A DNA stretch of 64,000 nt from Oscillospiraceae bacterium (GTDB taxonomy: Bacteria > Bacillota > Clostridia > Oscillospirales > Ruminococcaceae): positions 124,001-188,000 of the forward strand of contig JAJQBX010000018.1 in NCBI GenBank assembly GCA_021203065.1, given 5' to 3'. The notes under the pieces are model-generated. The model ran no database searches and was not told where the DNA came from. It saw only the letters and a list, made by a program, of their open reading frames with translations. How positions within the stretch are numbered: the stretch's first letter is position 1; each line of letters opens with the position of its first letter. Of this stretch, positions 17,619 through 37,256 are shown piece after piece. Position numbers and translations under genes: made by a program.

Positions 17619-18155
17619 TCAGGGGGTTTTGGAGTCATTTTTAAACACCACAAACCTCTGCCCAAAATAGTTCAACGCCACAAACAGGCACATTCCAACG
17701 AGCATGGCTATGTTGTCCTGAACAGTCTCGCCAAAGCTGGATAGAACGTACCTTACTGCGGGTTTTGCTACGCCGTAGGCTATCAGGTAGCAGATGCTGA
17801 TGTTTACGATGAACTTAAGGACAGTTCTGAAGCTTCTGTCTTTGTTGGTCGCTTCATCGACCACTGCCCAAACCAGCACCAGGAACACAAACCGCCAATC
17901 AACACCAAACCCCTTCAAAGTAAGGGATAAAAGCACCGAGAAAAAGCTTATATCATTTCTTGCGTGCTGTGTCTGCCAGTAGCAGGTCAGACCGGGACGC
18001 ACAAGAAGTCGCTGACGCTCAAAATCGCCGTACTGCTCAACCTCTCTTGGGAGGGCAGGACGAGGTCCGACGATGCTCATGTCCCCTCTCAGAATGTTCA
18101 CGAGCTGGGGGAGTTCTGTGGGACGGAACAAAAAATTAGCGTAAAATAAACTCAT
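17619..18155 (-). pseudogene. chimeric remnant: end of a bacterial sugar transferase joined to a GtrA-like fragment
   Basis: A 178-residue frame without a convincing start. Residues 13-70 match the C-terminal core of undecaprenyl-phosphate sugar transferases (ELPQLVNILRGDMSIVGPRP, then RPGLTCYWQ), but the preceding membrane helix and catalytic segment are missing. From about residue 105 the sequence is GtrA-like, with hydrophobic helices near 112-130 and 145-162 and the final NYFGQRFVVFKND typical of GtrA ends. Both parent families normally occur as separate full proteins, so this looks like a deletion joining two exopolysaccharide genes. Expression is possible but function is unlikely. Confidence 0.65.
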
Positions 18156-18257: not shown

Positions 18258-18845
18258 CTACTCATTCGTGTCTCTGATCTTTGCAGTGCTCCAAGGAAAT
18301 CCGAAATCTTTCCTCTTAATTTTGCACTTCGGCTCGCCATCTTTCCAAAAGACAATGCCTTCGATGTAATTGTTCCTGAGATATTCACGGATACCTTCAA
18401 AAGTGCGCCCGACTTCAATTACGTCCTTACCGTGTAGCTTCAGGGTGTCTTGTTCCAATCCATACGGATTGGTCTGAAAATGCGGTCCCAGCGCCTCATA
18501 GGTGCCGTCGGGCTTTTCTTCAAGGTAGTTGTCATAAGCCGCCCAGAACCATCTGTCGGCGGGATTACCGCGGTCACACTTCACCCAGCACGGAAGATGT
18601 CCAGTCACCGGATCGGGAGTTTCTTCACACCGAATAGCACCTTCCGGAACCTTTTTGCCACGCTTTGCGTCGTATCTCTTGTAAAATTCACCACCAATTA
18701 TGGCGCAGCACGCACCATCCCACTTAACCGTAGCAATGCCCTCTCCTTCCAAAACCCATTCAAGACCGGGCGTAACTTCAGGAGAGATTTCGACCACAAT
18801 GTGATTTTCAAATTTTCGGGCGAAAAGTGTAGGAATCTTTTTCAT
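18258..18845 (-). CDS. RNA ligase (DUF5565-like nucleotidyltransferase)
   Basis: A 195-residue protein with AAAGGAGCC before the ATG. KWDG at residues 41-44 is motif I of the ligase superfamily, with Lys41 the expected AMP-accepting lysine. YEALGPHFQTNPYG near 116-129 fits motif IIIa, EGIVFW at 162-167 motif IV, and KCKIKRKDF at 173-181 motif V. This set and the short length match the DUF5565/RNA ligase group rather than NAD-dependent DNA ligases. The enzyme would seal RNA or nicked duplexes using ATP. It is monocistronic with its own promoter and terminator. It lies just outside the presumed left edge of the conjugative element. Confidence 0.8.
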   Translation of the reverse strand: MKKIPTLFARKFENHIVVEISPEVTPGLEWVLEGEGIATVKWDGACCAIIGGEFYKRYDAKRGKKVPEGAIRCEETPDPVTGHLPCWVKCDRGNPADRWFWAAYDNYLEEKPDGTYEALGPHFQTNPYGLEQDTLKLHGKDVIEVGRTFEGIREYLRNNYIEGIVFWKDGEPKCKIKRKDFGFPWSTAKIRDTNE

Positions 18846-19000: not shown

Positions 19001-19669
19001 TTATCTTATAGAATACGAAATGCACCGAAGAAGTTCTTTTGCCAGGTTTCCCATATGAGCATATGCTTCGCTCAAAAGAAACCCTTGCATCTTTGTGGCA
19101 TCATCGCAGATCTTTGCAAAACTCAGAACTCCGCCCAAGTCATCGGATAGCTCTGCTATCGTATCCTCAGTCAATTTTGCCGGCTCTATCATATTCAGGG
19201 TATAATCAGGAGCAAGCTTTATCAGTGCTTCGTTTGAGTTCTTATACATCTCATGCAGATGATAATATCCTCCCCAATTATCTGGATTTAAGTACAGTAC
19301 AAATGTAAGGCAAGGCAACAGCCCACCCTCAGACAAAGCATCCCATGTTTCTGTCTCTGTTTCATACAGTCCACTTTCAAACGAAAACGCCTTTATGGGT
19401 AAATCATAGCTTATTTCTGTCTCTACCAATAAAGCACAATAAAGTCTTTCTGTCTTCATCAGAAAAATATTCTTGTACTCATTTTGAAATTCTTCTATAG
19501 TTCGCCCACTTCCGTATTCTCTGAGTTTACGAAAAATAGGCATAAGGTCTACCGGTAACATTTCCGACGGATTCACATTCTCTTCTTTCAGTATGAAATG
19601 ATTGATAAGTTCTGCAATCACGTCGGCTTGACAAAAATAATCCTTGATGGCATCGTCTAAACTGCTCAC
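19001..19669 (-). CDS. Rpn-like PD-(D/E)XK nuclease/transposase-family protein, copy 1
   Basis: The start is placed at the GTG at 19669 (VSSLDDAIKDYF), because AAAGGGAGAG lies upstream and the paralogue at 28791-29432 begins at the same residue; an ATG at 19693 in frame is possible. The segment DYFCQADVIAELINHFILKE, then the hydrophobic strand LYCALLVETEISYDLPIKAF resemble the restriction-like fold of Rpn recombination-promoting nucleases, with Glu in LLVETE as the likely metal ligand. Copy 2 shares nearly every motif. It is the last gene of the minus-strand operon running from the RepA-like ATPase. Role unknown. Confidence 0.6.
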   Translation of the reverse strand: MSSLDDAIKDYFCQADVIAELINHFILKEENVNPSEMLPVDLMPIFRKLREYGSGRTIEEFQNEYKNIFLMKTERLYCALLVETEISYDLPIKAFSFESGLYETETETWDALSEGGLLPCLTFVLYLNPDNWGGYYHLHEMYKNSNEALIKLAPDYTLNMIEPAKLTEDTIAELSDDLGGVLSFAKICDDATKMQGFLLSEAYAHMGNLAKELLRCISYSIR

Positions 19670-19685
19670 TGCATCCACTCTCCCT

Positions 19686-20054
19686 TTATTCATCAGCCAA
19701 CAGTACCGCCTCATTCAGATTGAACTCAACAATACCATGCTCCGAATACAGGACACCGTCCATATGATATGTATAACCTGAATCCCAACCGTATCGTTTC
19801 CAAAGCATTCTGAGTAGCACATCACTATAGATACGAAACTCGACTTCTTTAGATTCATAAATGGGAACCTTGAAGCAGTCAATGGTCTTCTTTTCGCACG
19901 CCTGAATTGCCAAGCATCCCTTTTCAGTGTTTATAAGGAACTTGATGTATTTTGGCTCAGACAACGCCTGCATCGTTGAACGGAAAACTACAATCTTCCC
20001 GTATTTCTTTGAAAGAGAAATGCCGGGAATGAAATTATCATTACTCCCCTGCAT
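19686..20054 (-). CDS. small recombinase-associated protein carrying the shared accessory domain
   Basis: A 122-residue protein that consists almost wholly of a domain also present at the C terminus of the serine recombinase encoded upstream. Shared positions include an IKFLINTEKGCLAIQACEK strand, the LWKRYGWDSGYTYHMDG segment (compare LYSLMGWNSDCGYRMRG) and a final EFNLNEAVLL (compare LFDLNEPEI). It overlaps the 255-residue gene by 14 bp, so translation is coupled. No catalytic motif is visible. A DNA-binding or recombination-directionality role is possible but not shown. Confidence 0.6.
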   Translation of the reverse strand: MQGSNDNFIPGISLSKKYGKIVVFRSTMQALSEPKYIKFLINTEKGCLAIQACEKKTIDCFKVPIYESKEVEFRIYSDVLLRMLWKRYGWDSGYTYHMDGVLYSEHGIVEFNLNEAVLLADE

Positions 20055-20808
20055 TTATGTCACCTTCCTCTGTCGCTATCCTATCCGGAAACATATCGTA
20101 CTGGGCATAGCCTTCTCTTATATCCACCTGCAACGCCGTCCTGTGCTCTACCACCGGCAGTCCATAAGAGTTTTCCCACTGCTCCGGCAAATATCCCTTT
20201 CGAGATTGCTTTCTTGTTTCGGCGGCAATCTTCTCAAGTTCTTCAGCCTGTTCATCAGACATAGGAATAACAGTACCGTCCGTACCAACGGATGTACCTT
20301 CTTCTGTGCCGACAGGCTTTTTCTTTTTGCCCAAATCAAGAAAGATTTCGGTTTCTAAGAGATCGAAGATATAGATTGTCTCTTCTTCGAATGAAATCCT
20401 GTAGCCAAGGATCTTATACCTATAATCGGCATTCCAGTCCATATCCTTGTAGAGCTTTGCCGTGAATACCTTTCCTGTAATCTTACGGCTTGTTCTTTTG
20501 TCCGGTTTCGCTACACACCAACGGATAGCATCCTTGTCGTTCTCTTCGCACTTCCTGACGACCATCTTCTGCTTTTCGGAATTAACCAAGATGTGTATGT
20601 ATACAGCATCTTCTAACCCACCGATGCAAGCAGTATTGAATGTAATGCCATCCCGTCGGATTACTACCGCCGGATCTCTCAAATGTGCAAACAATTCTTT
20701 GCGAACAACCTGATACCCGTCGTAGCTGAAATCCTTTGCAAGCTCTTGCGCTTTCTGGTCAATAAGCTCGTTTCTATCTGTTGCTGAATCTTGTAAAATT
20801 TCGTTCAT
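20041..20808 (-). CDS. recombinase-associated protein with the shared accessory domain
   Basis: A 255-residue protein overlapping the recombinase gene by 4 bp (ATGA), with GAGGAAAG in front. Residues 25-155 repeat the recombinase C-terminal domain: YQVVRKELFAHL, GITFNTACIGGLEDAVYIHI, AIRWCVAKPDKRTSRKI, LYKDMDWNADYRYKILG and IYIFDLLETEIFL. A charged C-terminal tail of about 100 residues follows. With the 122-residue neighbour it gives three genes in a row carrying one domain. Function is unknown; co-translation with the recombinase suggests a role in integration or excision. Confidence 0.65.
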   Translation of the reverse strand: MNEILQDSATDRNELIDQKAQELAKDFSYDGYQVVRKELFAHLRDPAVVIRRDGITFNTACIGGLEDAVYIHILVNSEKQKMVVRKCEENDKDAIRWCVAKPDKRTSRKITGKVFTAKLYKDMDWNADYRYKILGYRISFEEETIYIFDLLETEIFLDLGKKKKPVGTEEGTSVGTDGTVIPMSDEQAEELEKIAAETRKQSRKGYLPEQWENSYGLPVVEHRTALQVDIREGYAQYDMFPDRIATEEGDINAGE

Positions 20809-22670
20809 ACGGCTTTCCTCATCCTATCTATTAATTCTTGTGCCTTATCCATCAGAGCATCGACTTTTTCTCTGGTGAAGTCTTGCACATTTTCAACAGC
20901 TTTAGCCGGGCGTAGAACGTCCCAATTACCTGAATACTTTATCCGTTCCAGAAGATGAATCTTGTCTGCTTCGTCACCGTAACGGTCTGTCCAGCTTAGA
21001 GGGTAGAGAGTGATTATCTTTGCACAGCTTCTTTTAGGCTCTACTTGAGCTTTTGCCTCATTAACAGTTTCGACAGCTTCCTCCTGTTCCTCACGAACGG
21101 TAATCTCAGGTTCATTCAAGTCAAAGAGCATGAGCTTTTCACCGTTGCGTTCCATGAACTGTCCACGCATCCGGTATCCGCAGTCAGAGTTCCATCCCAT
21201 AAGACTGTACAGTGGTTCAGCAAATCCTCTACAGCTCTTAGGAAGAACAGCCCACCGCCCGTCTTCCTTTAAAGTTCCCCAACGGATAGCATTGGGATTG
21301 CTCTTTTCGCAAGGACGGATAGCTATACATTTCTCCACAGTGTTCAGCAATAGCTCAACGTACTCCACATCCTCAAATTTCTTAAGGCACGCAGTATTAA
21401 ACCGAATCTTATCATCTGAGATGGTCATAGCGGATTCTCGATTGGTCGAGAAGAACTGCGATCGTACAACCTCATATCCACTCAAATCAAAATGGGAGAG
21501 GCTTGGGAAAGCAGACTCTGCTCCATCGTTTTCATTGTAAACGCTCTTAGAAGCATTCGCATAATCTTCCTCTGAAAAGCCCGTCCAAGAACGATTTACA
21601 GGTACAAAGCCACGCAAAGCTCCGGTATCCACCACTTCAAGAGTGGGTAACGGACAGCCTCGTGCTCCATATTTGTGAGCTTCAATCATTCTCTGTGCAG
21701 CATTCCACTCTTCGTGAGTTACAATAGCCTCGTGGTGATCTACCTGCTTCTTTCTTGGTCTCTTTCCACGGTTTTTGCGAGACTTATGCTCCAAGTAGTC
21801 ATAGGTGTATGTTTTCCAACTGATGATGTCGCCACAATGACGTTCATTCTGTAGAATACCAAGAACACTCTTTGCATTCCAGACTGTGTTACCGAATTTG
21901 GTCTCACGCTTTAAATCGGTCAGGATCTCAGCAATATCTGATGTTGAGAAGCCTCCAAGAAACAGATAATAGATAAGGCGAACTGTGTCAGCCTCATCTT
22001 CATTGATCACAAGATTTCCATCCTCATCTTTGTCGTAGCCAAGAAGTTCAGGAGTGAGGAAGATGCCTTTTTCAAATCTGTGTTTGAGTGAAGATACCAT
22101 AATCTCACTTTTCACATGAGATTCTTCCTGTGCAGTCGCCGACAATACTGTCATGATAATGTCGTTGCCGGAATCCATAGAATTTAGATTCTCGGTTTCA
22201 AAGTACACGCCGACCGGCGGCTTCATGCTTGCAAGCTTGCGCTGAGTTAGGAGACTGTCAACCGTGTTTCTTGCAAAACGAGATATGCTCTTGGTTATGA
22301 TTAAGTCTATCTTGCCCGCTTCACAGTCGGCAATAAGCTTATTGAACTGGACTCTATGCTGTAGTGAAGTACCGGAGATTCCTTCATCGGCATAAATGCC
22401 GACAAGTTCCCAACCTTCATGCTCTTCGACCATATCTCTGTAAGAGTTTATTTGGAGCTCGAAAGAGGATGTCTGGTTTTCATCATCAGTAGAAACACGG
22501 ACATATATTGCTACACGAAGATTCTCACGCTTTATGTTTGGAACCTCGTCGACGTAGTTTTCGTCCGGAGGTAGAGTTTCAAGCAAGTCTGGGTCTACAC
22601 CTTTGTATCTCTCACGGATTCTATTTTTACGCTCCTCTTTACTGAGCTGACGCATATCCTTTGTACTCAC
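20805..22670 (-). CDS. large serine recombinase with unusual C-terminal domain
   Basis: The start is the GTG at 22670, whose GTGA overlaps the stop of the upstream gene; AAGGAGG lies 8 bases before it. An ATG 12 codons further upstream lies within the RepA gene. It gives 621 residues. The resolvase domain (about 52-200) has Ser60 in YVRVSTDD and the SRFARN arginines, followed by a recombinase domain (to about 345) containing NTVWNAKSVLGILQNERHCG. The usual zinc ribbon and coiled coil are absent. In their place, after residue about 400, comes the domain shared with the two downstream genes. It is likely the integrase of this element or of one nested in it. Confidence 0.85.
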   Translation of the reverse strand: MSTKDMRQLSKEERKNRIRERYKGVDPDLLETLPPDENYVDEVPNIKRENLRVAIYVRVSTDDENQTSSFELQINSYRDMVEEHEGWELVGIYADEGISGTSLQHRVQFNKLIADCEAGKIDLIITKSISRFARNTVDSLLTQRKLASMKPPVGVYFETENLNSMDSGNDIIMTVLSATAQEESHVKSEIMVSSLKHRFEKGIFLTPELLGYDKDEDGNLVINEDEADTVRLIYYLFLGGFSTSDIAEILTDLKRETKFGNTVWNAKSVLGILQNERHCGDIISWKTYTYDYLEHKSRKNRGKRPRKKQVDHHEAIVTHEEWNAAQRMIEAHKYGARGCPLPTLEVVDTGALRGFVPVNRSWTGFSEEDYANASKSVYNENDGAESAFPSLSHFDLSGYEVVRSQFFSTNRESAMTISDDKIRFNTACLKKFEDVEYVELLLNTVEKCIAIRPCEKSNPNAIRWGTLKEDGRWAVLPKSCRGFAEPLYSLMGWNSDCGYRMRGQFMERNGEKLMLFDLNEPEITVREEQEEAVETVNEAKAQVEPKRSCAKIITLYPLSWTDRYGDEADKIHLLERIKYSGNWDVLRPAKAVENVQDFTREKVDALMDKAQELIDRMRKAV

Positions 22671-23680
22671 TTTTCTTCCTCCTTCGGCTTCAGGCTCCAA
22701 TACCACGATTGCATTTTACGGTAACAACGGACGCCTATTGCCTTTTTCGTGTCTTCAGCAGTTCTGTGTCCTATCCCCTGCTCTTTTAATCGTTCATATA
22801 TTTCTTTAGACGACATATCTCTATCAGCTAATAGCTGTTTAATGAGATATGCCGCTTTTTCCATTTTAGTTGTAAACGCTTGTGGCTTATCTTTATCTTC
22901 AGATATTAGTCGCTGAGGTTCAGGTGAAAGATCACAACCAAGCCACTTGAATCCAGTCTCAGACCTTATCTCAAAACTGAAAGTTTCGCCGGTTGGTCCG
23001 AGGCTGTTCTTGATTTGATGAACAGTTCGTATGCACGGGTCTTCTTCATCACGTTCCACCTGCAAGACACTTCTTGCGGCAGCAACTACATCTATACTTC
23101 CGAAACTTCTATAGAGGTCTTTCTGACCCTCTTTTTTGTTTAAGTGCCCAATGAGGACAATCGCGCACTCATAAACGCTCGCCCACATACTTAGCCTGCT
23201 CATAAGTTTCCTTGCTCTGCCTGCTACTTGTAAGTCAGCACTTCCACCAATGTAGGCTTGTATTGGATCTATTACAACAAGACGGGGTCTATACTCGACT
23301 ATAGCTTGACGAAGACGCTCATCGTCCAATGTCAACGCTCCGCCTGTTTCCTCATTAATGAAACCGACATTACGGCAATCTGCACCACATTTTTCGAGTC
23401 TTGGCTTTATGGTGTCCTCCAAACCGTCTTCTGAACACTGGTATAAAACACGTCTTGGAACTCCAAGAGCTTTTCCGTCCGGAGTAGCTCCTCCTGTTGA
23501 AATCTCAGCAATTAAGTTCAGCATCATGGTTGACTTCCCGTCTCCGGGGTCGCCTTGCAGTATTGTAATCTTACCGATTGCAATAAAAGGATACCACAGC
23601 CATCTCACAGTCTTCGACTGTATTTCGTTATATGATGTGACGAGATTTGAGCCGTAGTTACCTTGCATTTGCATTTTCAC
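22667..23680 (-). CDS. RepA-like AAA ATPase (replicative helicase family)
   Basis: A 337-residue protein; the GTG at 23680 or the ATG at 23674, which sits five bases after GAGG, can start it. Walker A is GDPGDGKST (43-51) and Walker B is RLVVIDPIQAYIG near 130-142, with IVLIGHLNKKEG after it, all as in RepA/KaiC-type hexameric helicases. The C-terminal 70 residues form a winged-helix region (MSSKEIYERLKEQGIGHRTAED) as in primase-helicase partners. It probably unwinds element DNA during its replication. It leads the operon with the recombinase, directly behind the palindromic operators at 23753-23799. Confidence 0.8.
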   Translation of the reverse strand: MKMQMQGNYGSNLVTSYNEIQSKTVRWLWYPFIAIGKITILQGDPGDGKSTMMLNLIAEISTGGATPDGKALGVPRRVLYQCSEDGLEDTIKPRLEKCGADCRNVGFINEETGGALTLDDERLRQAIVEYRPRLVVIDPIQAYIGGSADLQVAGRARKLMSRLSMWASVYECAIVLIGHLNKKEGQKDLYRSFGSIDVVAAARSVLQVERDEEDPCIRTVHQIKNSLGPTGETFSFEIRSETGFKWLGCDLSPEPQRLISEDKDKPQAFTTKMEKAAYLIKQLLADRDMSSKEIYERLKEQGIGHRTAEDTKKAIGVRCYRKMQSWYWSLKPKEEEK

Positions 23681-24524: not shown

Positions 24525-25289
24525 ATGGATCTGTATAAAGAATTATCTGCTTTACGTTGCTTCACCTATAATGACATAATCCAGCTCACTGGTTCGGAAA
24601 GTTCAGCGCAGTGGCAGATAAAGAACTATCTTGAAAAAGGATACATCGAAAGAGTGCGGCGGAATTTGTATGCCGTCATAAGCATGGAGACAGCGCAACC
24701 GATACCAAGCCGGTTTCAAATCGCATCGCGCATAACCGACGATGCCTGCGTGTCTCACCACAGTGCTTTTGAATTTTATGGGTATGCAAATCAGGTGTTT
24801 TACGACGTGTACTTCACAACGGAGAAGACTGTGCAACCGTTTGACTATGACGGCGTTCATTATCAGCCTGTAATATGGCGTGGTGACACGGGTATTGTCG
24901 AAACAAATATAGGAGTACGGGTAACTTCCCTTGAACGAACCGTGATAGACAGCATAGCTGATTTCACAAAAATCGGCGGATTGGAAGAGTTGCTTCGTTG
25001 CCTCTCTCTGATACCTTCACTTGATGAAAATAAGCTTCTCGAAGCATTGAAAATGCACAATCGAAGTCAGCTTTATCAGAAGACGGGGTATATTCTCGAA
25101 GCGTATGCTGAGGAACTGTCACTGTCGGATGAATTTTTCTCTCAATGTGTGGCTAAATCGTCCTCCAGTAAAACCTACCTGTTTAATAAGCAGGATGACT
25201 TCGTGTTTCATAAAAAGTGGCGACTTTATGCGCCGGCAGACTTGAGAAAACTTATTAATAAGGGGGTAGACGACTATGATGCAGTTTGA
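24525..25289 (+). CDS. abiEi: AbiEi-type antitoxin/transcription repressor
   Basis: A 254-residue protein with GAAGGAGGG before the ATG. The N-terminal winged HTH (CFTYNDIIQLTGSESSAQWQIKNYLEKGYIERVRRNLYA) followed by VSHHSAFEFYGY and the SLERTVIDSI helix is typical of AbiEi antitoxins of type IV systems. AbiEi represses its own operon and counters the toxin without binding it. The gene overlaps the toxin gene by 14 bp and has direct repeats upstream that may be its operators. It sits as cargo between the integration module and the CBASS-like unit. Confidence 0.85.
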   Translation: MDLYKELSALRCFTYNDIIQLTGSESSAQWQIKNYLEKGYIERVRRNLYAVISMETAQPIPSRFQIASRITDDACVSHHSAFEFYGYANQVFYDVYFTTEKTVQPFDYDGVHYQPVIWRGDTGIVETNIGVRVTSLERTVIDSIADFTKIGGLEELLRCLSLIPSLDENKLLEALKMHNRSQLYQKTGYILEAYAEELSLSDEFFSQCVAKSSSSKTYLFNKQDDFVFHKKWRLYAPADLRKLINKGVDDYDAV

Positions 25290-26229
25290 CCGCATATCGC
25301 TCGGCAGACAGGCGAAGGAATTGGGCTTTGTCAGAGATACTTTTGAAAAAGTTTGCAGGCTTGCGGACGTTCTATCTTTCATGGAAAGTGACAACCTGCT
25401 GTCTAAAAGTCTTGCACTGAAAGGTGGTACGGCAATAAATCTGACCGTATTTGACCTGCCACGCCTTTCCGTGGATATTGACTTAGATTACTCCCGAAAC
25501 GTGCCAAGAGAAGCGATGCTACAGGAACGGGAGCAGATAAACAATCGTATTCAGAAATACATGGTCGCTTCGGGATATGTTCTAAGCCCAAAATCAAAAC
25601 AGTATCATGCTCTGGATTCTTTCGTGTTTGAGTATATCAATGCCGGCGGGATGAGGGATAATCTGAAAATCGAAATCAACTATATGTTACGGTGTCATGT
25701 CTTCCCTACTTCTCGCAGGGCTGTGAAACTGCCTTGGAGTGAAAGTGAGCTTACTGTACTTAGCATTGATCCTATGGAAATCTTCTCAGCCAAAGTAGTC
25801 GCTTTGTTCAATCGGGCAGCCGCAAGGGATTTGTACGACATTTTCAATTTGCAGAAATACAAGCTATTTGACGAGTCGCAAGAGGAACTGTTCAAGAAGT
25901 GCATCATCTTCTACTTCGCCATAGCTTCAGAAACAGTGCCAGAACACTTTGACTTTGACAAGATTGAAAGAATCTCAGCGCAGAAGATAAGAACGGATTT
26001 AGTTCCCGTGCTGCGAAAAGCTGAACGCTTCAATCTTTTTGAGGCACAGGAACAGGTGGAGGAATATCTGAAAGGAATTCTTCTGCCGGAGGGCGATTTG
26101 TCGTTCTGGACTGAATTTGCAAAAGGTAAATACAAGTCGGAATTGCTGTTTAATGATGCTGAAATATTGGCGAGAATTGGGCAACATCCGATGGCGGTTT
26201 GGAAGTGTAGTAAGAAAACGCAGAAATAA
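25276..26229 (+). CDS. abiEii: AbiEii-type nucleotidyltransferase toxin
   Basis: A 317-residue protein. The nucleotidyltransferase motifs are KGGTAINL (49-56) and SVDIDLDY (65-72, with the metal-binding Asp pair D67/D69). The later MEIFSAKVVALFNRAAARDLYDIFNL block is the conserved helical region of AbiEii/AbiGii toxins. Family members transfer nucleotides to tRNA or other acceptors and cause reversible growth arrest upon phage infection. The sequence looks intact. It is translationally coupled to abiEi and followed by a strong hairpin at 26239-26264. Confidence 0.88.
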   Translation: MMQFDRISLGRQAKELGFVRDTFEKVCRLADVLSFMESDNLLSKSLALKGGTAINLTVFDLPRLSVDIDLDYSRNVPREAMLQEREQINNRIQKYMVASGYVLSPKSKQYHALDSFVFEYINAGGMRDNLKIEINYMLRCHVFPTSRRAVKLPWSESELTVLSIDPMEIFSAKVVALFNRAAARDLYDIFNLQKYKLFDESQEELFKKCIIFYFAIASETVPEHFDFDKIERISAQKIRTDLVPVLRKAERFNLFEAQEQVEEYLKGILLPEGDLSFWTEFAKGKYKSELLFNDAEILARIGQHPMAVWKCSKKTQK

Positions 26230-26379: not shown

Positions 26380-27684
26380 TTATTCAATTGGAACCTCAAT
26401 TCTGTCCCTCGCTATGCAGACGCCATTCTTTATAATGTAGCACTCCACAAAATGCGGTCCAGAAAAGGATGTGTTCTCAATTTGTGAAGTTCTGTTTGTA
26501 CGGTTAATCTGTCCTCGAATTTGATTTCTCCGAATGGCTTCTGCCCCAACATTACGAACCTTCCAATATATATCACTTCCATTTGGGTAGTCATCGGAGT
26601 TAATATAAAACTCAAGATGTTTATTAATTGGTAATTTCGTGCCATATTTATTAAGAAACGTCCGTAGTGTGTATGTTCTAAAACCATTCTGCGTTACCTT
26701 ACAATCTATTGATAGTCGGTACCTAATATCAACAGGAAACATGTCCTCAATGAATTGCTCTGTCTGTGACATATTACTTTGTGAATCATATCGCAAGCTG
26801 GCACATTCTTCAGCCTTAGTAATTTGTTTTGGAAATTCATTTCCAAACAAATCAATCAGCACGTCATTTATCCGATTATCGCCAACTTCTGCTAAAACTT
26901 CGTAGGCTTTTTGAGCCTCGTCAACAAAAGCACCCTGCCCAGAATTCATTACATGCTGATTACTTCCCACGGCAAACCAGTAACTCTGTTCTGGATTCAA
27001 TCCTTTCAAATAAGCAAATAGGGATTTAAGAATATCCAAATAGTCATTATAGCCCTTATCACTAAAATTGTCATTATTTGAAAAATGGTTATAAACCAAC
27101 GTATCTATCAATAAGCCACCGAACAAAAATCCCTTTTTATTCTTCCAGCTTCTTACCATGTGGCAAAAATCATAATATACGCCATTTGAACTGCTATTAC
27201 ATGAACCACATTCTTTCTGCTCTTCTAAAGGCTTTGTTATTTTCCAACTCCCACCGTCGTGTGTATCTGGATATTTAAAACTATCATCTGCCTGCTTAAA
27301 ACCTGGCACAAGCTCAACAGTATATCCAGTAAAATCAATTACTACAACCTGACCATCACCTCGAATGTCAGTCTTCGGATATCTTGATTTTAGAACTTCT
27401 TTTACCTCTTGGAGAAGAGATGACTGTCCATTGGAGCTATATTTATCAAACCTGTCATAAACTTCGGAAGGCAGATCGAAAAGAATATCCAAATCGCTTG
27501 CACCATCAATAGCAGTTCCCCTGCCAACGGAGCCAACTATATATAAATGTGATGTGTTATCCTTCTCTAAGCCATAATATTCCTTATTTAATTTCTTTGC
27601 AATTTCCCCAGCCGAAATTTCCATATTGTCCTGATTTTGAAGCCGTATTTCTTTGCAAAATGTCTCGAAATCATCCTTTAACAT
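26380..27684 (-). CDS. CD-NTase (SMODS) with C-terminal AGS-C sensor domain
   Basis: A 434-residue protein. GSVGRGT at 51-57 and SDLDILFD at 63-70 (D64 and D66) are the polymerase-beta-like active-site motifs, with Glu124 in VELVPGF as the third acid, as in SMODS cyclic-oligonucleotide synthases. The middle is the helical OAS1-like region. The C-terminal 95 residues (KVRNVGAEAIRRNQIRG, then HFVECYIIKNG) match the AGS-C sensor domain. It is the second gene of a two-gene unit, overlapping the SLATT effector gene by 7 bp. The nucleotide product cannot be predicted. It is a CBASS-like defence enzyme. Confidence 0.85.
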   Translation of the reverse strand: MLKDDFETFCKEIRLQNQDNMEISAGEIAKKLNKEYYGLEKDNTSHLYIVGSVGRGTAIDGASDLDILFDLPSEVYDRFDKYSSNGQSSLLQEVKEVLKSRYPKTDIRGDGQVVVIDFTGYTVELVPGFKQADDSFKYPDTHDGGSWKITKPLEEQKECGSCNSSSNGVYYDFCHMVRSWKNKKGFLFGGLLIDTLVYNHFSNNDNFSDKGYNDYLDILKSLFAYLKGLNPEQSYWFAVGSNQHVMNSGQGAFVDEAQKAYEVLAEVGDNRINDVLIDLFGNEFPKQITKAEECASLRYDSQSNMSQTEQFIEDMFPVDIRYRLSIDCKVTQNGFRTYTLRTFLNKYGTKLPINKHLEFYINSDDYPNGSDIYWKVRNVGAEAIRRNQIRGQINRTNRTSQIENTSFSGPHFVECYIIKNGVCIARDRIEVPIE

Positions 27685-28274
27685 TCGTCACCTTCATTAG
27701 TAGTTTGAACAGTCACATTTTTTAGAGGATCAGGAAGCAATTTATCAAGCTCATCCTCATCAAAAGTATTATCATTTTTAATCTTCAATGCAATCCCGGC
27801 TTTATGTACTGCCTTGCTTGTTGTCTGTGGACACTCCTGATACAGACTATGCAATTCATCCGTCAACTTTTCATGTGCTGTCATTAAATCATGTACCGTT
27901 CCATCTCTTAGCCTTATTCTCACAATTAGATTAGAAAACTGATCTCTTTTAGCTAACAGTTTATTAGCCGCAGTTTTATGATTTGCAGCCATACTTTTCA
28001 AATCAAAAGATTTAAGATAAGCACTTATAAATAAAGAAACAACTGATACCACAGCGGATATAACCCTTACCCATGTTTCATCATAAAAGATAGCCGATAT
28101 GATTCCAGCAGAAGTTATTGCTGTTGTTACTACCTGAACTGTCTGCATCACAGCATAACGACCAGCATATATATCGCCCTGCTTTTCTTGGATTTTATGT
28201 GTCCATACGACTCGCGCATAGGTATCCTTAACGCTTTTTTCTAAAAGCTCATATTTTTGTTCCTCGTCCTGCAT
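27678..28274 (-). CDS. SLATT-domain two-helix membrane effector
   Basis: A 198-residue protein with GAGGTGG before the ATG. An amphipathic N-terminal helix (about 1-35) is followed by two membrane helices at about 42-62 and 69-87 and a cytoplasmic helical tail, the layout of SLATT domains, which are pore-type effectors in nucleotide-signalling defence. The adjacent gene encodes the CD-NTase with overlapping start, so the pair would work as sensor-synthase plus membrane-permeabilising effector. No ancillary Cap2 or Cap3 genes are present, so this would be a minimal type I-like CBASS arrangement. Confidence 0.8.
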   Translation of the reverse strand: MQDEEQKYELLEKSVKDTYARVVWTHKIQEKQGDIYAGRYAVMQTVQVVTTAITSAGIISAIFYDETWVRVISAVVSVVSLFISAYLKSFDLKSMAANHKTAANKLLAKRDQFSNLIVRIRLRDGTVHDLMTAHEKLTDELHSLYQECPQTTSKAVHKAGIALKIKNDNTFDEDELDKLLPDPLKNVTVQTTNEGDEC

Positions 28275-28790: not shown

Positions 28791-29432
28791 CTATTTTTGA
28801 CTCAGGTAATCCGAAAAGCTCTGAATAAGTTCTCTCGCAGAATTACCCATCCGGGCATATGCTTCACCAGAAAGGAACTCTTGCTTCTTCTCTATATCAT
28901 TGCTGATTCTTATAAGTCTCAGCACTCCGCCTAAATCTTCGGACAACTCTGCTATCGTGTCATTAGTAATTTTTGCCGGCTCTATCATGTAGAAATAATA
29001 ATCCGCAGGCTGTTCACTTGCTATATCATGCAGATGATTTTGTTTTGGGCTTAAGTACAATACAACCGTCATGCATGGCAACAGTCCGCCATTGTCCAAG
29101 CAATTCCACGTTTCTATCTCCGTAGCATACAGACCGTTTTCAAATAAGCATAACTTTATAGGTAGCGCATTGCTCATTTCTGTCTCCACCAAGAGTACGC
29201 AATAAAACTTTTCCGCCTTCATTAAAAACAAATTTCTGTACATACTCTGAAATTTCTCAAGTGTCAGTTTACTGCCGTAATCCTTAAGTTTATAGAAGAT
29301 AGGCATAATGTCCACCGGAACCATTTCAGAAGGATTCACTTCTTCTTTAAGTATAAAGTGATTTATAAGTTCTGCAATCACTTCCTTCTGCCCAAAATAG
29401 CCCTTAACAGCATCATCTAAACTGCTCATCAC
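28791..29432 (-). CDS. Rpn-like nuclease-family protein, copy 2
   Basis: A 213-residue paralogue of the protein encoded at 19001-19669. Start codons GTG (29432) and ATG (29429) are adjacent, with GGGGG upstream; I cannot choose between them. Shared blocks are SSLDDA, EVIAELINHFILKEE, FYCVLLVETEMSNALPIKL, GGLLPCMTVVLYLSP, MIEPAKITNDTIAELSEDLGGVL and the GEAYARMGNSARELI end. The family resembles Rpn PD-(D/E)XK nucleases. Unlike copy 1 it directly faces the XRE gene across the operator region, with no recombinase between, so the recombinase segment seems to have been lost from this copy. Confidence 0.6.
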   Translation of the reverse strand: MMSSLDDAVKGYFGQKEVIAELINHFILKEEVNPSEMVPVDIMPIFYKLKDYGSKLTLEKFQSMYRNLFLMKAEKFYCVLLVETEMSNALPIKLCLFENGLYATEIETWNCLDNGGLLPCMTVVLYLSPKQNHLHDIASEQPADYYFYMIEPAKITNDTIAELSEDLGGVLRLIRISNDIEKKQEFLSGEAYARMGNSARELIQSFSDYLSQK

Positions 29433-31656: not shown

Positions 31657-31760
31657 TGACGATATCACCTCTTGTACTGACACTAAATATCTAAAATCTC
31701 TTATCACGTTTTTATTTTACCACAAATTCAGGATATAATCAAGGGTGGCTTGGAGATTTT

Positions 31761-33401
31761 TCATCCCACCATCCTCTCCACTTCAACCTCACTCATAACT
31801 TCTTCCGCTTCTGCTGCTTCATCCAACGCCTTCTCAACCAAATCCTCACACTTCCACGCTATCTCAATACACCATTTGTCATAGACTGTGACCTTCTCGA
31901 TGAAAGTATCTGCCATTTTGCAAGTGATTCTCGTTTCGTTTTCAAACAACTGTACATTTTCCATCAAATAGTCAAGCTCAGGCTTGCGACGATTTCTGGT
32001 CTTTCGAAGCTTTGCCTCTTTTTCGTGAAGCTTATTCAACTCACTTCTGATAAATTCAATCTCTGTGGATAGCTTTTCTTTATCTTTTGCAAAATCTTCT
32101 TTACTTATCTGACCGTCACTGTAACACTCATACAGTTCAACTTTTTTAGATTGGATAGCTTTAAATTCAGCTTGGAGGTTTTCTGCTTCATCATTTAGAA
32201 TCCGTAATCCCTCCCATCGCTTTTGTTCTGCTTCATCTACGTTTCCACAAGCGGTTTCTAAGAGCATCATCCAGGATTTAAGTTGCGTGAAGACTCTTGC
32301 GTTGAGAAATTCCTCTGGCATATGTTCTTCAGTGCAACCGACTTTCTTTCCCGTCTGTCTTGCTTGAGTACAGTAATAGTAGCATTCATCATAAATGTTG
32401 TCCTTATAAGCCATCGCATAACCGCAGTTGCCGCAGAATACTTTTGCCCTCAGCGGATAACGCTTTGACGAACACTTGGGTTTCTTGCTACTAAATACCT
32501 CCTGTGCTTTCTCGAATGTTTCCATGTCTACGATTGCCGGATGATTGTTCGGTATTCTCGTCGGATTTTCAACCCTTACGGATTTCTTCATTCCGACTAC
32601 AACTCTCTTCCTTCGTTGAAAGACATAGGTTCCTGCGTAAAACTCATTGTACAAGATATTCGCCACTTTCTTCCCAGTCCATGCCGCAAACTCACTTTTC
32701 TCTACCCTGTTATCTTTTCCTTTTACTTGATGCGCTTTGTTATATGCGAGTATTGTAGGAACATTCTCTCTATTCAATATTCTGACTATATCGCATTGAC
32801 GATTGCCTTTACAAGCAAGTGAGAAAACATATCTCACAATCTTTGCAGCTTCTTCGTCGATGAGTACTTTGCCTGGATGTTTTTCATCTTTAACGTACCC
32901 GAACGGCAAATTGAAGAACAATTCTCCATGCTCTCGCTTCATATTTAAAGTCGTGGTGACTTTTCGGGATAAATCCTGTGAGTAGTAAGAGTTGACAATG
33001 TTCTTCATCGCAACTTCCATCTGCCGGTCTTCGTTTGTTCTGCCAGTGTCATAGTTGTCTGCGACAGAGATAAACCGTGTGCCGAGGAACGGGAATAGCT
33101 TTTCCAAGTAATCTGCACACTCGACATAGTTTCTGCCAAAGCGGGAGAAGTCTTTGACTATCACGGTCGTGACGACTCTCTTTTTAATGAGTGCTAACAT
33201 TCTCTGAAATGCGGGTCTCTGAAAGTTCGTCCCACTGTAGCCGTCGTCAATAAATTCCTCAACATCTTCGCTTCGCAAATCCGGAGACTCTTCAAGATAT
33301 TCATTCAGAAGTCTTCTCTGATTTTCCACGCTGTTGCTTACCTGCTTATACTCATCAACGTCATCATCAAGACGTGAAAGCCTCATGTACAAACCAACCA
33401 T
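31761..33401 (-). CDS. large serine recombinase (third of three)
   Basis: A 546-residue protein with AAAGGAGC before the ATG. The resolvase domain has Ser9 in YMRLSRLDDD and DFSRFGRN. A recombinase domain follows (TGKKVANILYNEFYAG), then a zinc ribbon (CGNCGYAM ... C ... C), a coiled-coil region about residues 390-480 and a C-terminal DNA-contact region. It resembles TndX/TnpX-type recombinases that excise and insert elements through a circular intermediate. Its start overlaps the end of the upstream recombinase by 35 bp. A remnant of a similar gene end lies at 28588-28694. Confidence 0.9.
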   Translation of the reverse strand: MVGLYMRLSRLDDDVDEYKQVSNSVENQRRLLNEYLEESPDLRSEDVEEFIDDGYSGTNFQRPAFQRMLALIKKRVVTTVIVKDFSRFGRNYVECADYLEKLFPFLGTRFISVADNYDTGRTNEDRQMEVAMKNIVNSYYSQDLSRKVTTTLNMKREHGELFFNLPFGYVKDEKHPGKVLIDEEAAKIVRYVFSLACKGNRQCDIVRILNRENVPTILAYNKAHQVKGKDNRVEKSEFAAWTGKKVANILYNEFYAGTYVFQRRKRVVVGMKKSVRVENPTRIPNNHPAIVDMETFEKAQEVFSSKKPKCSSKRYPLRAKVFCGNCGYAMAYKDNIYDECYYYCTQARQTGKKVGCTEEHMPEEFLNARVFTQLKSWMMLLETACGNVDEAEQKRWEGLRILNDEAENLQAEFKAIQSKKVELYECYSDGQISKEDFAKDKEKLSTEIEFIRSELNKLHEKEAKLRKTRNRRKPELDYLMENVQLFENETRITCKMADTFIEKVTVYDKWCIEIAWKCEDLVEKALDEAAEAEEVMSEVEVERMVG

Positions 33402-35103
33402 TGAATTGTGCTCCTTTCATAGTCAATAGCTTCTCTACATAGTCCTCGCATTTAAAAATAATTTTGAAACTACCGTCAACGCTGTATTCCAACCGTTCGA
33501 CAAAAGTCTCTAAGAGTTCTCTCGTCAAGCCTTTTCGGAGGAGCCGTTCAACCATATCCGGCTCATCGTCTTCAATTATTTCCACACTCGAAGTTTCGGT
33601 GAACTGTATCGTTCCGACACTCTCACCACCAAAGTCATCGATAAACAACTTCTTCTTTAGCTCTGCCCATGGGTCTGCGCCACTGTCCACATTCTTATCT
33701 GAGTTTAACTCTTCTTGAACTGCTTTCAGCTGTTCAGCATAAGCAGTGCGGATTTCTATGTACTCATCCTCAGTTATTATCTCGTCAGCATAATCTTCGT
33801 AAAGTCTTCGAAGCTTCTGTTTAATTTCCGCTTCCCTTTTTGTGATAGTAGCTGTCTGTTTCTTTTTCTCTTTGGAGTCTTCTCTCATCAACTGTTCAAG
33901 CTTTTCAAGTTCAAGCCCTGCCCTTAGTTGTGCCCTTATCTGATCGAGAACGAATTTGTATACAACATGGTCAGATATGCTTTTACGAGTTATTGCACAC
34001 GGTGGAGCCCCTTTATCACCTTTTCTGTATAAGCTGTATCCACCACAGCGATACCTGTAGTTTCTAATCACTGTCCCACATCTGACTTTATCGTAAAACA
34101 TTGCCCGTCCGCAATCTCCACAATAGAAAACTCCTTGCAAGACGTTACTACTTGACGTCTTTTTCTTCTTTCTCTCTCCCCGTTCTTCCATGTCCAAGCT
34201 GATGGCTTCAAACGTTGCTTCATCCACCAACGCCTCATGTGTATTGGGGATGATTTTGTGCTCGCCTTTGCCAAAGTTATTGTAAATAGTCGCCCCCGTG
34301 TATGTCCTGTTTTTTAGAATATGCCGTACATTTAAGTAGTTCCACTTGTTATTGCTCTCAAGATTCTTGTACTTTCCCTTCGATTTCATGTAACCAAGAG
34401 GTGTTGGAGCACCAATCTCATTCAAACGATCTGCTATCGCTACAAGTCCAAATCCTCCTGATTTCATAGTGAAAATAAGGCGAACGTAGTCGGCGACTTC
34501 AGTGTCTACTAAAAGGTGATAGTTACAATCCGGGTCAATTACATAACCATATGTAACCGCCATGATAGCTCTTTCATTTTTCTTTTCCTTTGCTCTGAAA
34601 GTCGCCAGAACTTTTCTCTGAACATCCCGTGCATACAGCTCGTTAATCATGTTTTTTAGCGGCACCATGATGTCGCCGTTTTTCTTTCCGTCCATCGAAT
34701 CAAAATTATCATTGATTGAGATGAAACGAACATCTAACTGCGGGAAGATAGATTCAAGATAATAACCTGCTTCAACGTGATTTCTTCCGAATCGGGATAG
34801 GTCTTTTACTACTATGCAGTTTACCATGCCGTCTTTTACATCTTCCATCATCCTCTGGAACTCGGATCTTTCAAAGTTCATACCACTCTGACCGTTGTCC
34901 ACATAACGGTCAACAAGAGCTAAGTCCGGATGCTTGCTTATGTACTCTTCGAGATATTTAATCTGATTCTGAAGTGAGCGCTCATCTTCAAAGCCGTTAT
35001 TCTCATTAGAGAGTCGTGCATAAAGAGCCGTCTTCCATTCTGCTGTTTGGGTTCTTTTTAAATACCTCTCTGTAGACTGCGCTACTCTTTCTCTTCTGCT
35101 CAT
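33367..35103 (-). CDS. large serine recombinase (second of three)
   Basis: The start is set at the ATG at 35103 (MSRRERVAQSTERYL), which has AAGGAGG nine bases upstream; a TTG at 35142 overlapping the upstream gene is less likely. It gives 578 residues. The resolvase Ser is in LYARLSNENNG (about residue 32), with DLSRFGRNHVEAG, and a zinc ribbon CGDCGRAMFY near residue 330, a long coiled coil (380-460) and a C-terminal tail. It lies in an operon of overlapping recombinase genes. All active-site residues I can see are intact. Confidence 0.9.
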   Translation of the reverse strand: MSRRERVAQSTERYLKRTQTAEWKTALYARLSNENNGFEDERSLQNQIKYLEEYISKHPDLALVDRYVDNGQSGMNFERSEFQRMMEDVKDGMVNCIVVKDLSRFGRNHVEAGYYLESIFPQLDVRFISINDNFDSMDGKKNGDIMVPLKNMINELYARDVQRKVLATFRAKEKKNERAIMAVTYGYVIDPDCNYHLLVDTEVADYVRLIFTMKSGGFGLVAIADRLNEIGAPTPLGYMKSKGKYKNLESNNKWNYLNVRHILKNRTYTGATIYNNFGKGEHKIIPNTHEALVDEATFEAISLDMEERGERKKKKTSSSNVLQGVFYCGDCGRAMFYDKVRCGTVIRNYRYRCGGYSLYRKGDKGAPPCAITRKSISDHVVYKFVLDQIRAQLRAGLELEKLEQLMREDSKEKKKQTATITKREAEIKQKLRRLYEDYADEIITEDEYIEIRTAYAEQLKAVQEELNSDKNVDSGADPWAELKKKLFIDDFGGESVGTIQFTETSSVEIIEDDEPDMVERLLRKGLTRELLETFVERLEYSVDGSFKIIFKCEDYVEKLLTMKGAQFNGWFVHEAFTS

Positions 35104-35131
35104 TTGTAATATATCCTCCTTCTTGTTGTCA

Positions 35132-35602
35132 CTACTGTTCAACGGTGCGCATGAACTCGCTGTTCTTTTTCTTCAAGTAGCTTTCTAAGTCACCGTCAAT
35201 AGTATCATAGTCTGCTTCAACATCAATAAAACGAATACCGCAGGGTGCGAAATAATCTTTGACTGCGTATGAAAATCCCGCAAAGCTCGGAGCGACAGTT
35301 CTTGCGGCATATATAACTACAACCTCAACCACTGATGTCTCAGCATCTGAAAGAAGTCTTTTCCACGCATCGTTGCCTTCTGCACTATACGAATGACCTC
35401 TCATCTTATTTTCACCTTCACCGGGTTTAACAACCTTGACCTGTTCATCTCTGTAGATACGCATGAGTTTCAAGTCTTCGTGTTTTAAGATAAAAGATTT
35501 ACACTTATCTAATGCTTCCTCCAAACCCACCGGCTCACCGTAAGCAGATGGTGCTATGTAGATTGCTGTTCTTTTACCTGACTTTTCTGATTCTCGAATC
35601 AT
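35132..35602 (-). CDS. degenerate resolvase-like protein without catalytic arginines
   Basis: A 156-residue protein with GAGGAGGTAG before the ATG, overlapping the upstream recombinase gene by 29 bp. The fold order of a resolvase catalytic domain is visible: AIYIAPSA where active paralogues have AIYLRLSR, then KLMRIYRDE, VVVIYAARTVAPSFAGF where they have IIVKDLSRFGRNYIEV, and IRFIDVEADYDTIDGD matching VRLVAINDNFDT. A Ser is still at the aligned position, but the Arg before it and the two SRFGRN arginines are lost, and there is no DNA-binding part. It is probably inactive as a recombinase. It may act as a partner or directionality factor for the others. Confidence 0.65.
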   Translation of the reverse strand: MIRESEKSGKRTAIYIAPSAYGEPVGLEEALDKCKSFILKHEDLKLMRIYRDEQVKVVKPGEGENKMRGHSYSAEGNDAWKRLLSDAETSVVEVVVIYAARTVAPSFAGFSYAVKDYFAPCGIRFIDVEADYDTIDGDLESYLKKKNSEFMRTVEQ

Positions 35603-37256
35603 AAATAACTACCTCCTCAATAATTTCGTTATATCCATAAGCTTCAAGGGTCGCCTCTATGAAATTCGTGTCTTTAAACACAATCTCCATCTTTCCGCCC
35701 GGATAAACAAGTACCTGTTCCAAAAGCTCGGCGAGGATTGGACGCTCAAGACTTGTAATGTTCCTATACTTCTTGAAAGTCTTAATCCACTTGGCTTCTT
35801 CAAAGTTTGCAATCGCCCGTTTGCGTTCGTCTGCCACATTACGCATTGTTTCTTTTGTCTTATCTATCTTCGCTTTGTACATTTGAGAATAGTCCATGTA
35901 CTCTTCCCGACTCAAGATTCCAACTTTATAGTCTTCATAAAGTCCGTTTTTAATTCGGGCGTATCTTTCCATTTCTTCTTGAAGCTGAACAAGCTGACCA
36001 TCAAGTCTTATGGCTTCTCTACTCTGCCCCGGCAAGCTATCTGCTACATCAATCAGTGTTTCCATTCTTACAGCAATTTCAGCCGTCTTTCGGATTGCTT
36101 CAAGAATTGCCGCATATGCTTTTTTCTCACTCACACGTTTTGTCTTCCGACTTTCGTCACGACAATCCTTACAGGTGTAGTAGTTGTACTTCTTACCTTT
36201 GTAATATGAAGGTTGCAATATGAGTTGTCTGCCACAATCTCCGCAGAATAGAAATCCGGAAAGCAACGCCACTGTAGTTCTGTTTCCGGCTACTCTCGTT
36301 TCCTTCTCCATTATTTCCTGAACCATGTCATAGAGTTCCGGTTCTACGATTGCCTCATGTGTATCCTCAACTCTTATCCATTCCTCTTTAGGCAAAAGTA
36401 CCTTTTCCTTGGAATGGCAGTCAAGCCTTTTTCTTTTGCCCTGCACCATTGTCCCCTTGTAGTACTCGTTATGCAGGATGTTATATACACTTCCTCTTGC
36501 CCATTGAGCTTTGTCCAAATGTTTTAGGTTTCCCGATACATAATTACCCATAGCTGTCTGGTACTCATATGGTGAAAGAACTCCTTGCTCGTTTAACTTA
36601 TCTGCAATAGCTTTGTCACTGTACCCTTCCAATTTCCAAATGAATATTTGCTTTACGTTCCCTGCTACATTCTCATCTACAATTAGCTTTAAATGGTCTT
36701 TCGGGTTTCTCTTATATCCGTATGGAATACAAGAGGATACGCATTCGCCTCTCACTCTCATTGCCGCAAGCTGAGTGGAAACTTTCTTCGAGATGTCCTT
36801 GCAGTAGATGTCGTTGATGAGATTTTTCATCGGCACGGTAAGGGCATCGCCATTCTGCCACTCGTTCAACGTATCGAAGTTATCGTTGATGGCGACAAGA
36901 CGAACGCCTAAGACAGGAAAAATCATCTGGAGGTATCTGCCGACCTCTATGTAATTTCTGCCGAAGCGGGAGAGGTCTTTTACGATGATACAGTTTACCG
37001 CTCCGCACTCCAAGTCCTCATAAAGTTGTTTCCACGCAGGTCTTTCAAAATTAGAACCGGAGTAACCGTCATCAACGTATTCATCCACCAAGCAAAACTC
37101 AGACTTGTTTTCAATATAGTCCGTAATAAGTTTTCTCTGATTTGAGATAGAATCACTTTCAAACTTGTCGCCGTCATCACGGGAAAGGCGCAGATAGATA
37201 GCGGTTCTGTATATTGTCTGATTTGTTTTTCTTATTGGGCTATACTCTGTAACCAT
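35574..37256 (-). CDS. large serine recombinase (first of three)
   Basis: A 560-residue protein with GAGGAGGCGG before the ATG. Catalytic Ser25 lies in YLRLSRDDGDKFESDS, with DLSRFGRNYIEVG intact. The recombinase domain includes ARGSVYNILHNEYYKG; the zinc ribbon is CGDCGRQL...C..C near 345-375, and a coiled coil spans about 405-490. It is closest in layout to the other two large recombinases here. It follows the DUF6870 gene by about 40 bp and starts the run of overlapping recombinase genes. Confidence 0.9.
   Translation of the reverse strand: MVTEYSPIRKTNQTIYRTAIYLRLSRDDGDKFESDSISNQRKLITDYIENKSEFCLVDEYVDDGYSGSNFERPAWKQLYEDLECGAVNCIIVKDLSRFGRNYIEVGRYLQMIFPVLGVRLVAINDNFDTLNEWQNGDALTVPMKNLINDIYCKDISKKVSTQLAAMRVRGECVSSCIPYGYKRNPKDHLKLIVDENVAGNVKQIFIWKLEGYSDKAIADKLNEQGVLSPYEYQTAMGNYVSGNLKHLDKAQWARGSVYNILHNEYYKGTMVQGKRKRLDCHSKEKVLLPKEEWIRVEDTHEAIVEPELYDMVQEIMEKETRVAGNRTTVALLSGFLFCGDCGRQLILQPSYYKGKKYNYYTCKDCRDESRKTKRVSEKKAYAAILEAIRKTAEIAVRMETLIDVADSLPGQSREAIRLDGQLVQLQEEMERYARIKNGLYEDYKVGILSREEYMDYSQMYKAKIDKTKETMRNVADERKRAIANFEEAKWIKTFKKYRNITSLERPILAELLEQVLVYPGGKMEIVFKDTNFIEATLEAYGYNEIIEEVVIYDSRIRKVR

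Follow-up and report, generated by a model that had tools for sequence, protein, structure and literature searches.

A serine recombinase family without a zinc ribbon shares its C-terminal domain with two co-encoded small proteins of mobile elements

Serine integrases act as single proteins with one added directionality factor, and both the choice of site and the direction of recombination are accounted for by the zinc ribbon and coiled coil at their C-terminus. Another arrangement exists in cyanobacteria, where XisF, the serine recombinase of the fdxN element, needs two helpers, XisH and XisI. The present study deals with a stretch of 64,000 nucleotides (nt) of Oscillospiraceae bacterium (GCA_021203065.1, JAJQBX010000018.1:124,001-188,000, forward strand; the window), in which a serine recombinase (REC) ends in a domain (ACC) that recurs in two neighbouring proteins of 255 and 122 amino acids (aa), named ACC2 and ACC3 (Table 1). 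REC shares the Recombinase domain (PF07508) with the large serine integrases of phiC31, Bxb1, SPbeta (YokA) and the A118 type but differs from them in having neither a zinc ribbon nor a visible coiled-coil hairpin, in its new C-terminal domain with two homologous helpers, and in that several recombinases occur on the element here. The XisF model gives only a weak match to REC (E 1.6e-10, well short of its cut-off), and neither ACC2 nor ACC3 has a Pfam match at E<=1 to XisH or XisI, both of which are Pfam families; a remote kinship may exist. It is proposed, with a probability of roughly 0.6, that REC is a trans-complemented recombinase for integration and excision and forms, with ACC2 and ACC3 as its other subunits, a single machine for site-specific recombination. 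The support computed for this comes from homology, gene order, active-site residues, split and fused forms, the other recombinases of the elements and the place near the junction.

The closest described systems also have several serine recombinases per element. In the serine-integrase triplets of integrative and conjugative elements (ICEs) of Streptococcus, 10 of 42 serine integrases lack the zinc ribbon, the target gene is disrupted as in the window, and direct repeats are 2-8 bp long against 5 bp here; the Streptococcus module has three adjacent recombinases near one end, the window element has REC and three zinc-ribbon recombinases, and the sections of that paper available to us do not mention an accessory domain or helper proteins (PMC4701971). 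The phages phi1207.3 and phi-m46.1 carry a ribbon-less recombinase, Orf2, with two zinc-ribbon recombinases, and their Orf3 was found to be a stand-alone ACC protein; this form is split and holds one ACC copy as against three. In the accessible part of the paper on phi1207.3 all three recombinases are named, and Orf3 is given no function (PMC4260502). In gut phages labelled Ca. Heliusvirales the same REC-ACC2-ACC3 order exists with all three genes annotated as "hypothetical protein"; two further genes follow ACC3 in these phages, whereas the window element is conjugative, and two zinc-ribbon recombinases face the module in L009 and L010. The words integrase, recombinase and invertase are absent from the main text, as available to us, of the paper on Ca. 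Heliusviridae (PMC9226167), which is presumably one group with Ca. Heliusvirales. No description of the ACC domain or of the three-gene order was found in our searches of the open-access literature, and two further papers (PMC6814731, PMC7168690) proved irrelevant. Several serine recombinases per element are already known; the ribbon-less family with a replacement domain in three copies is the surprising part.

All three genes lie on the minus strand at the positions given by the first-pass annotation, and their overlap was borne out, being 4 nt between REC and ACC2 and 14 nt between ACC2 and ACC3. Read from a GTG start at 22670, REC has 621 aa; this start shares bases with the TGA that ends the ATPase gene upstream of it (GTGA), and an alternative frame of 633 aa is open from 22706. 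Because the genes overlap, REC, ACC2 and ACC3 would be co-translated. The ACC domain occupies residues about 394-525 of REC (621-aa form), with a conserved tail after it. By BLASTP the C-terminus of REC is 37% identical to the 255-aa protein over 130 aa (E=2e-26), and the 122-aa protein matches REC at E=2e-7 and the 255-aa protein at E=8e-9. The recurrence of one domain in the recombinase and both small proteins had been claimed from short sequence blocks, and pairwise profile comparison upheld it: E was 3.6e-49 for REC domain and ACC2, 2e-21 for REC domain and ACC3 and 8e-20 for ACC2 and ACC3, with controls of unrelated proteins at 0.72-0.80. Judged by these alignments the three domains are homologous. 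The tail of ACC2 may in addition resemble the P..W..FG-type tail behind the REC domain (profile E 1.9e-6, probability only 79).

Pfam gave PF00239 (E 1e-24) and PF07508 (E 2.2e-19) with a sub-threshold Spherulin4 match, and found no zinc ribbon (PF13408) in REC; two CxxC pairs after residue 300 occur in 0 of 73 REC proteins. The AlphaFold model of REC has no long helical hairpin, the helices past residue 375 being 426-431, 481-491 and the terminal 600-620. The absence of both zinc ribbon and coiled coil, noticed earlier from the letters, holds, that of the coiled coil in this model. The ACC domain is predicted to be beta-rich, with residues 600-620 as the one long helix at the terminus. Arg58, Arg106, Arg131, Arg134, Asp95, Glu183 and Lys127 are invariant in 73/73 REC proteins and Ser60 is kept in 72, and these we take to be the catalytic residues of resolvases. 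REC has the Resolvase domain, nucleophilic serine and conserved arginines that define a serine recombinase, and its catalytic domain appears intact.

In the AlphaFold models the strands and helices of the domain follow in equal order in REC and ACC2, the two of the three copies that were modelled. A fold matching known directionality factors had been suggested as something to look for; none was prominent among the fold-search matches listed and no match was clear, a weak one being B3-like. ACC2 and ACC3 have no significant match in Pfam, NCBIfam, PHROG or PADLOC. Two predicted phage proteins of 113-114 aa in BFVD resemble the ACC2 model, namely A0A142F1T0 of Bacillus phage Mgbh1 (E 4e-4, target TM 0.61) and A0A7U0GBQ4 of Klebsiella phage vB_KpM_FBKp24 (E 6e-3, target TM 0.60), and the ACC fold may be spread more widely.

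In the leading alternative, one or both of ACC2 and ACC3 act as recombination directionality factors which bind the ACC domain of REC and switch the system from integration to excision. Small proteins encoded beside a recombinase would fit this role, and the directionality factor gp3 of phiC31 binds its integrase through the zinc domain, as described in the available portion of the source (PMC5814800), and it is this domain that ACC replaces. A helper homologous to the domain it targets would also be suited to forming heterodimers. A direction switch is expected to be regulated apart from the integrase, whereas the gene overlap suggests expression together with REC; sequence search found no solved relative of ACC (0 at E<=10); and in the split form the one ACC protein would have to be domain and switch at once. 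Such a switch is unlikely in our estimate. For ACC2 and ACC3 as subunits of the proposed machine, a role in direction or in the choice of target is possible.

The three-gene order was searched for in other genomes. A scan of genome contigs gave 262 encoded relatives and a viral-contig scan 142, of which 80 each were kept; 138 of the 160 loci were left once identical proteins were removed, and 116 had both flanks readable. REC stands directly before ACC2 and ACC3 directly after it in 104 of these 116 non-identical loci, unrelated elements included. Ten of the 15 exceptional rows listed have one extra gene, broken in one case, between REC and ACC2. This extra protein has 240-268 aa (L069, L071, L075, L083, L086, L089, L090, L099, L103), and the L089 example, which was tested, has no Pfam match. 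REC and ACC2 overlap in 101/113 loci and ACC2 and ACC3 in 94/125, both being upper bounds because the start was taken as the first start codon in each frame. Named hosts include Blautia, Anaerostipes, Coprococcus, Faecalibacterium and Ruminococcus. Within the family of the host itself the 255-aa protein was matched in 12/197 genomes, and seven of the 12 (its own included) hold a long ACC2-like protein. One record of the plasmid collection matched. In the viral scan the single 255-aa protein confirmed no relative, and it was an alignment query that found the 142.

The duplications have a readable history. In a tree of 102 ACC domains, made from few columns by a quick method, ACC2 (32 rows) forms one clade with support 100 and ACC3 (31 rows) one clade with support 98. 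ACC3 and eight stand-alone proteins lie on one side of one branch, and the REC domains and the stand-alone proteins need two changes each, neither being shown as a single clade. The statement that the domain is duplicated as two stand-alone proteins was right, and going by this tree the duplications giving ACC2 and ACC3 are old. It could be argued that the extra copies are functionless leftovers of duplication, as the 122-aa copy, already described as less conserved, is the least conserved of all with a mean pairwise identity of 0.29. This is hardly credible, since ACC2 and ACC3 are separate clades and three ACC domains are kept in 141 of 161 loci, four being present in 8 and two in 12 (window and identical loci included, some loci cut by contig ends). 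The distance matrices of the parts correlate with r 0.77-0.87 (n=110) against 0.41-0.79 with neighbouring genes; this correlation is partly shared descent, as neighbours correlate too.

Split forms connect the stand-alone proteins with the fused one. In phi1207.3 (L011) the Orf2 recombinase has 370 aa and no ACC, and the adjoining Orf3 has 138 aa; the same pair of a short ribbon-less recombinase and an adjacent ACC protein occurs in L016, L017, L027, L029 and L038. Tblastn with Orf3 matched 20 phage records, and each of the three copies in the window is recovered by a profile built from eight stand-alone proteins (E 3e-19, 8e-18 and 1.8e-14). Because one lineage has the parts fused and another encodes them side by side, ACC proteins and recombinase would be working together. 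A different possibility is that ACC2 and ACC3 are transcriptional regulators, either of the recombination operon or of the whole element, with a fold related to small DNA-binding barrels and that the copy in REC is only a tether. The weak B3-like match is consistent with this, as are the basic stretch at residues 96-113 of ACC2 (mean net charge +5.5, minimum +3, 98 proteins) and orphan ACC proteins which occur in other contexts with no adjoining recombinase (L026, L028); the basic stretch equally fits the proposed recombination machine. The regular co-occurrence with REC and the split and fused pair argue instead for a shared reaction, and XRE-type regulators, some recognised by eye, already adjoin the module; that ACC2 and ACC3 are regulators is improbable.

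The element of the window is a conjugative insertion of 88,742 bp which holds the module and three zinc-ribbon recombinases, with the module 1.6 kb from the element junction. Its target is a host sugar-transferase gene which has been cut, the 5' half lying at C15:230796-231362, and in six congeners the two halves match adjoining parts of a single unbroken frame of 220-287 aa. Two nested elements were considered and ruled out, as the interrupted gene marks one 88.7-kb insertion with both recombinase groups; there may be older nesting within the element. Companion recombinases were counted in 23 hand-chosen records (16 viral loci on long contigs and 7 phage records, several pairs being near-identical) and were present in 21. 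Exactly three Recombinase-domain proteins occur in 18 of these records, one in two, five in two and six in one, and in 16 of the 18 two of the three proteins have a zinc ribbon. In a close relative, L044, three zinc-ribbon recombinases, REC, ACC2 and ACC3 stand in a single run. Four viral records of the AAA type (G197-G200) have further Recombinase-domain matches about 6-11 kb upstream of REC on the same strand.

Other loci also have the module near an end. No more than about 250 nt beyond ACC3, a broken-looking host gene begins in L049, L050, L052, L063, L066, L080 and L124 by Pfam or BLAST, and in L051 and L054 as read by eye; in L080 only the very start of the host gene would be missing. 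Six of these nine loci (L049, L050, L051, L052, L054, L124) have in common an arm GTTGTYYCT...TTnACA before the junction, and the shared arm GTTGTTCC...ACA lies in the 100-250 bp beyond ACC3. REC is 0.9 kb from the phage end in phi1207.3, and two prophages have, about 3 kb from REC and separated from it by other genes, a comEC that seems to be cut short. Four other genomes were searched for the second half of the target gene; candidate halves were seen only in that of L052, on different contigs, and no second complete element was delimited by this means. REC-ACC lies near the element end where ends are readable, and its company with other serine recombinases near such an end is supported.

Table 1. 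Positions in the window of the module, its neighbours and the features of its element
Feature	Position	Strand	Evidence
REC, serine recombinase with Resolvase (PF00239) and Recombinase (PF07508) domains, no zinc ribbon	20805..22670	-	Pfam, BLASTP, profiles, AlphaFold
ACC2, 255 aa, stand-alone ACC domain (residues about 27-157) and tail	20041..20808	-	BLASTP, profiles, AlphaFold
ACC3, 122 aa, stand-alone ACC domain, least conserved copy	19686..20054	-	BLASTP, profiles, tree
AAA_25 ATPase, weakly RadA/replicative-helicase-like, directly upstream of REC	22667..23680	-	Pfam/family libraries
237-aa protein, overlaps ACC3	19001..19714	-	ORF list
Zinc-ribbon serine recombinase 1 of the element of REC	31761..33401	-	
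Zinc-ribbon serine recombinase 2 of the element of REC	33367..35142	-	
Zinc-ribbon serine recombinase 3 of the element of REC	35574..37256	-	
3' half of interrupted sugar-transferase gene; first about 13 codons element-derived, GtrA match further on	17619..18155	-	
Left junction core, GGGAG on +, CTCCC on -; the right junction, C15:230851-230855, has the same 5 bp	18109..18113	.	

The neighbours of the module suggest one more reading, that REC-ACC takes no part in integration and serves as a resolvase or maintenance system of its own, for instance for dimer resolution of the circular form, acting with the AAA ATPase or with ParB-like proteins. A relative of the AAA ATPase occurs in 32/91 related loci in which more than 4 kb precede ACC2, and two other genes follow downstream in 72/107 and 73/107 loci with room; the ATPase and the first of these two are together in 0/91. 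The downstream genes are ParB-like by eye, and in the L009 pair Pfam gave DUF6551 for one and no match for the other. The near-junction position in the window and nine other loci (two by eye) and the companion recombinases of the 23 records tell against a maintenance system, which is quite unlikely.

Between the module and the left junction lies an RNA-ligase-like gene (18258-18845; phrog_14301, E 3.4e-54). The window also has defence-like cargo between the two recombinase groups: an AbiE pair (24525-26229), a CBASS-type cyclase with a 2TM effector (26380-28274) and a Schlafen/AlbA-type protein (30154-31707). The 237-aa protein has a paralogue at 28791-29432 (59% identity, no known family), and the two flank the ATPase, REC, the ACC genes and the defence genes.

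Ten flanks were hand-picked from 34 loci (33 with ACC3), the others ending at a contig end or in no recognised family, and eight of the ten, a count that gives no rate, match polysaccharide-related families (Bac_transf, Polysacc_synt_2, DegT, pyruvyl transferase; L049, L050, L052, L063, L065, L080, L124, L135). DegT and epimerase genes are also met outside polysaccharide operons. In L065, L080 and L135 the gene adjoins the module, its truncation not being proved. The other two flanks are a Na/Ala symporter (L056) and one without match, the opposite strand being scanned (L051). The window element itself carries a surface-polysaccharide cluster at C15:208086-230786 (L209, L210) with NeuB, a cytidylyltransferase, GDP-mannose dehydratase, a flippase, a Wzy-type protein, WecG/TagA and its own sugar transferase; at the right junction this last gene comes immediately after the cut sugar transferase of the host. 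The whole has the look of a polysaccharide-switching element. In a related genome the element is present in a shorter form (G612:C20:9209-67267; L258-L261), with the REC and ACC2 genes broken. It adjoins the same right-hand chromosomal gene (91% identity), and the genes at its right end share 95% and 77% identity with those of the window element, most polysaccharide genes between them being different; its right junction was not found.

On the proposed reading, that REC, ACC2 and ACC3 form one machine, phages and conjugative elements of large size, most of them from Bacillota, would use it for entry into and exit from the chromosome, and it would act beside two or three serine recombinases with a zinc ribbon that the element also encodes. 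REC would give the catalytic domain, which is intact, and the Recombinase domain, which binds DNA close to the core; ACC would stand in for zinc ribbon and coiled coil, contacting the DNA further out and/or linking recombinase subunits. ACC2 and ACC3, as long-separated and non-interchangeable copies, would join REC in trans, as would the single stand-alone protein in the split form of phi1207.3, and would complete or modulate the complex on an attachment site near the same element end. Physical interaction of the three proteins, DNA binding by ACC, synapsis and a role in integration and excision are what we infer for this machine. A wider version is tentative and somewhat doubtful: ACC could be a new recombination domain that took the place of zinc ribbon and coiled coil in a serine recombinase and later multiplied into a hetero-oligomeric set (REC-ACC, ACC2, ACC3), which with the zinc-ribbon recombinases would build a mixed synaptic complex; elements inserting into surface-polysaccharide operons would use this as their integration machinery, at least once importing a replacement polysaccharide cluster.

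If the proposal is true, a natural family without ribbon or coiled coil, and with three co-encoded copies of one domain, would be another build of site recognition and synapsis. The REC-ACC family could possibly be of use in genome engineering, and three "hypothetical" genes that recur in gut phages would gain a functional hypothesis.

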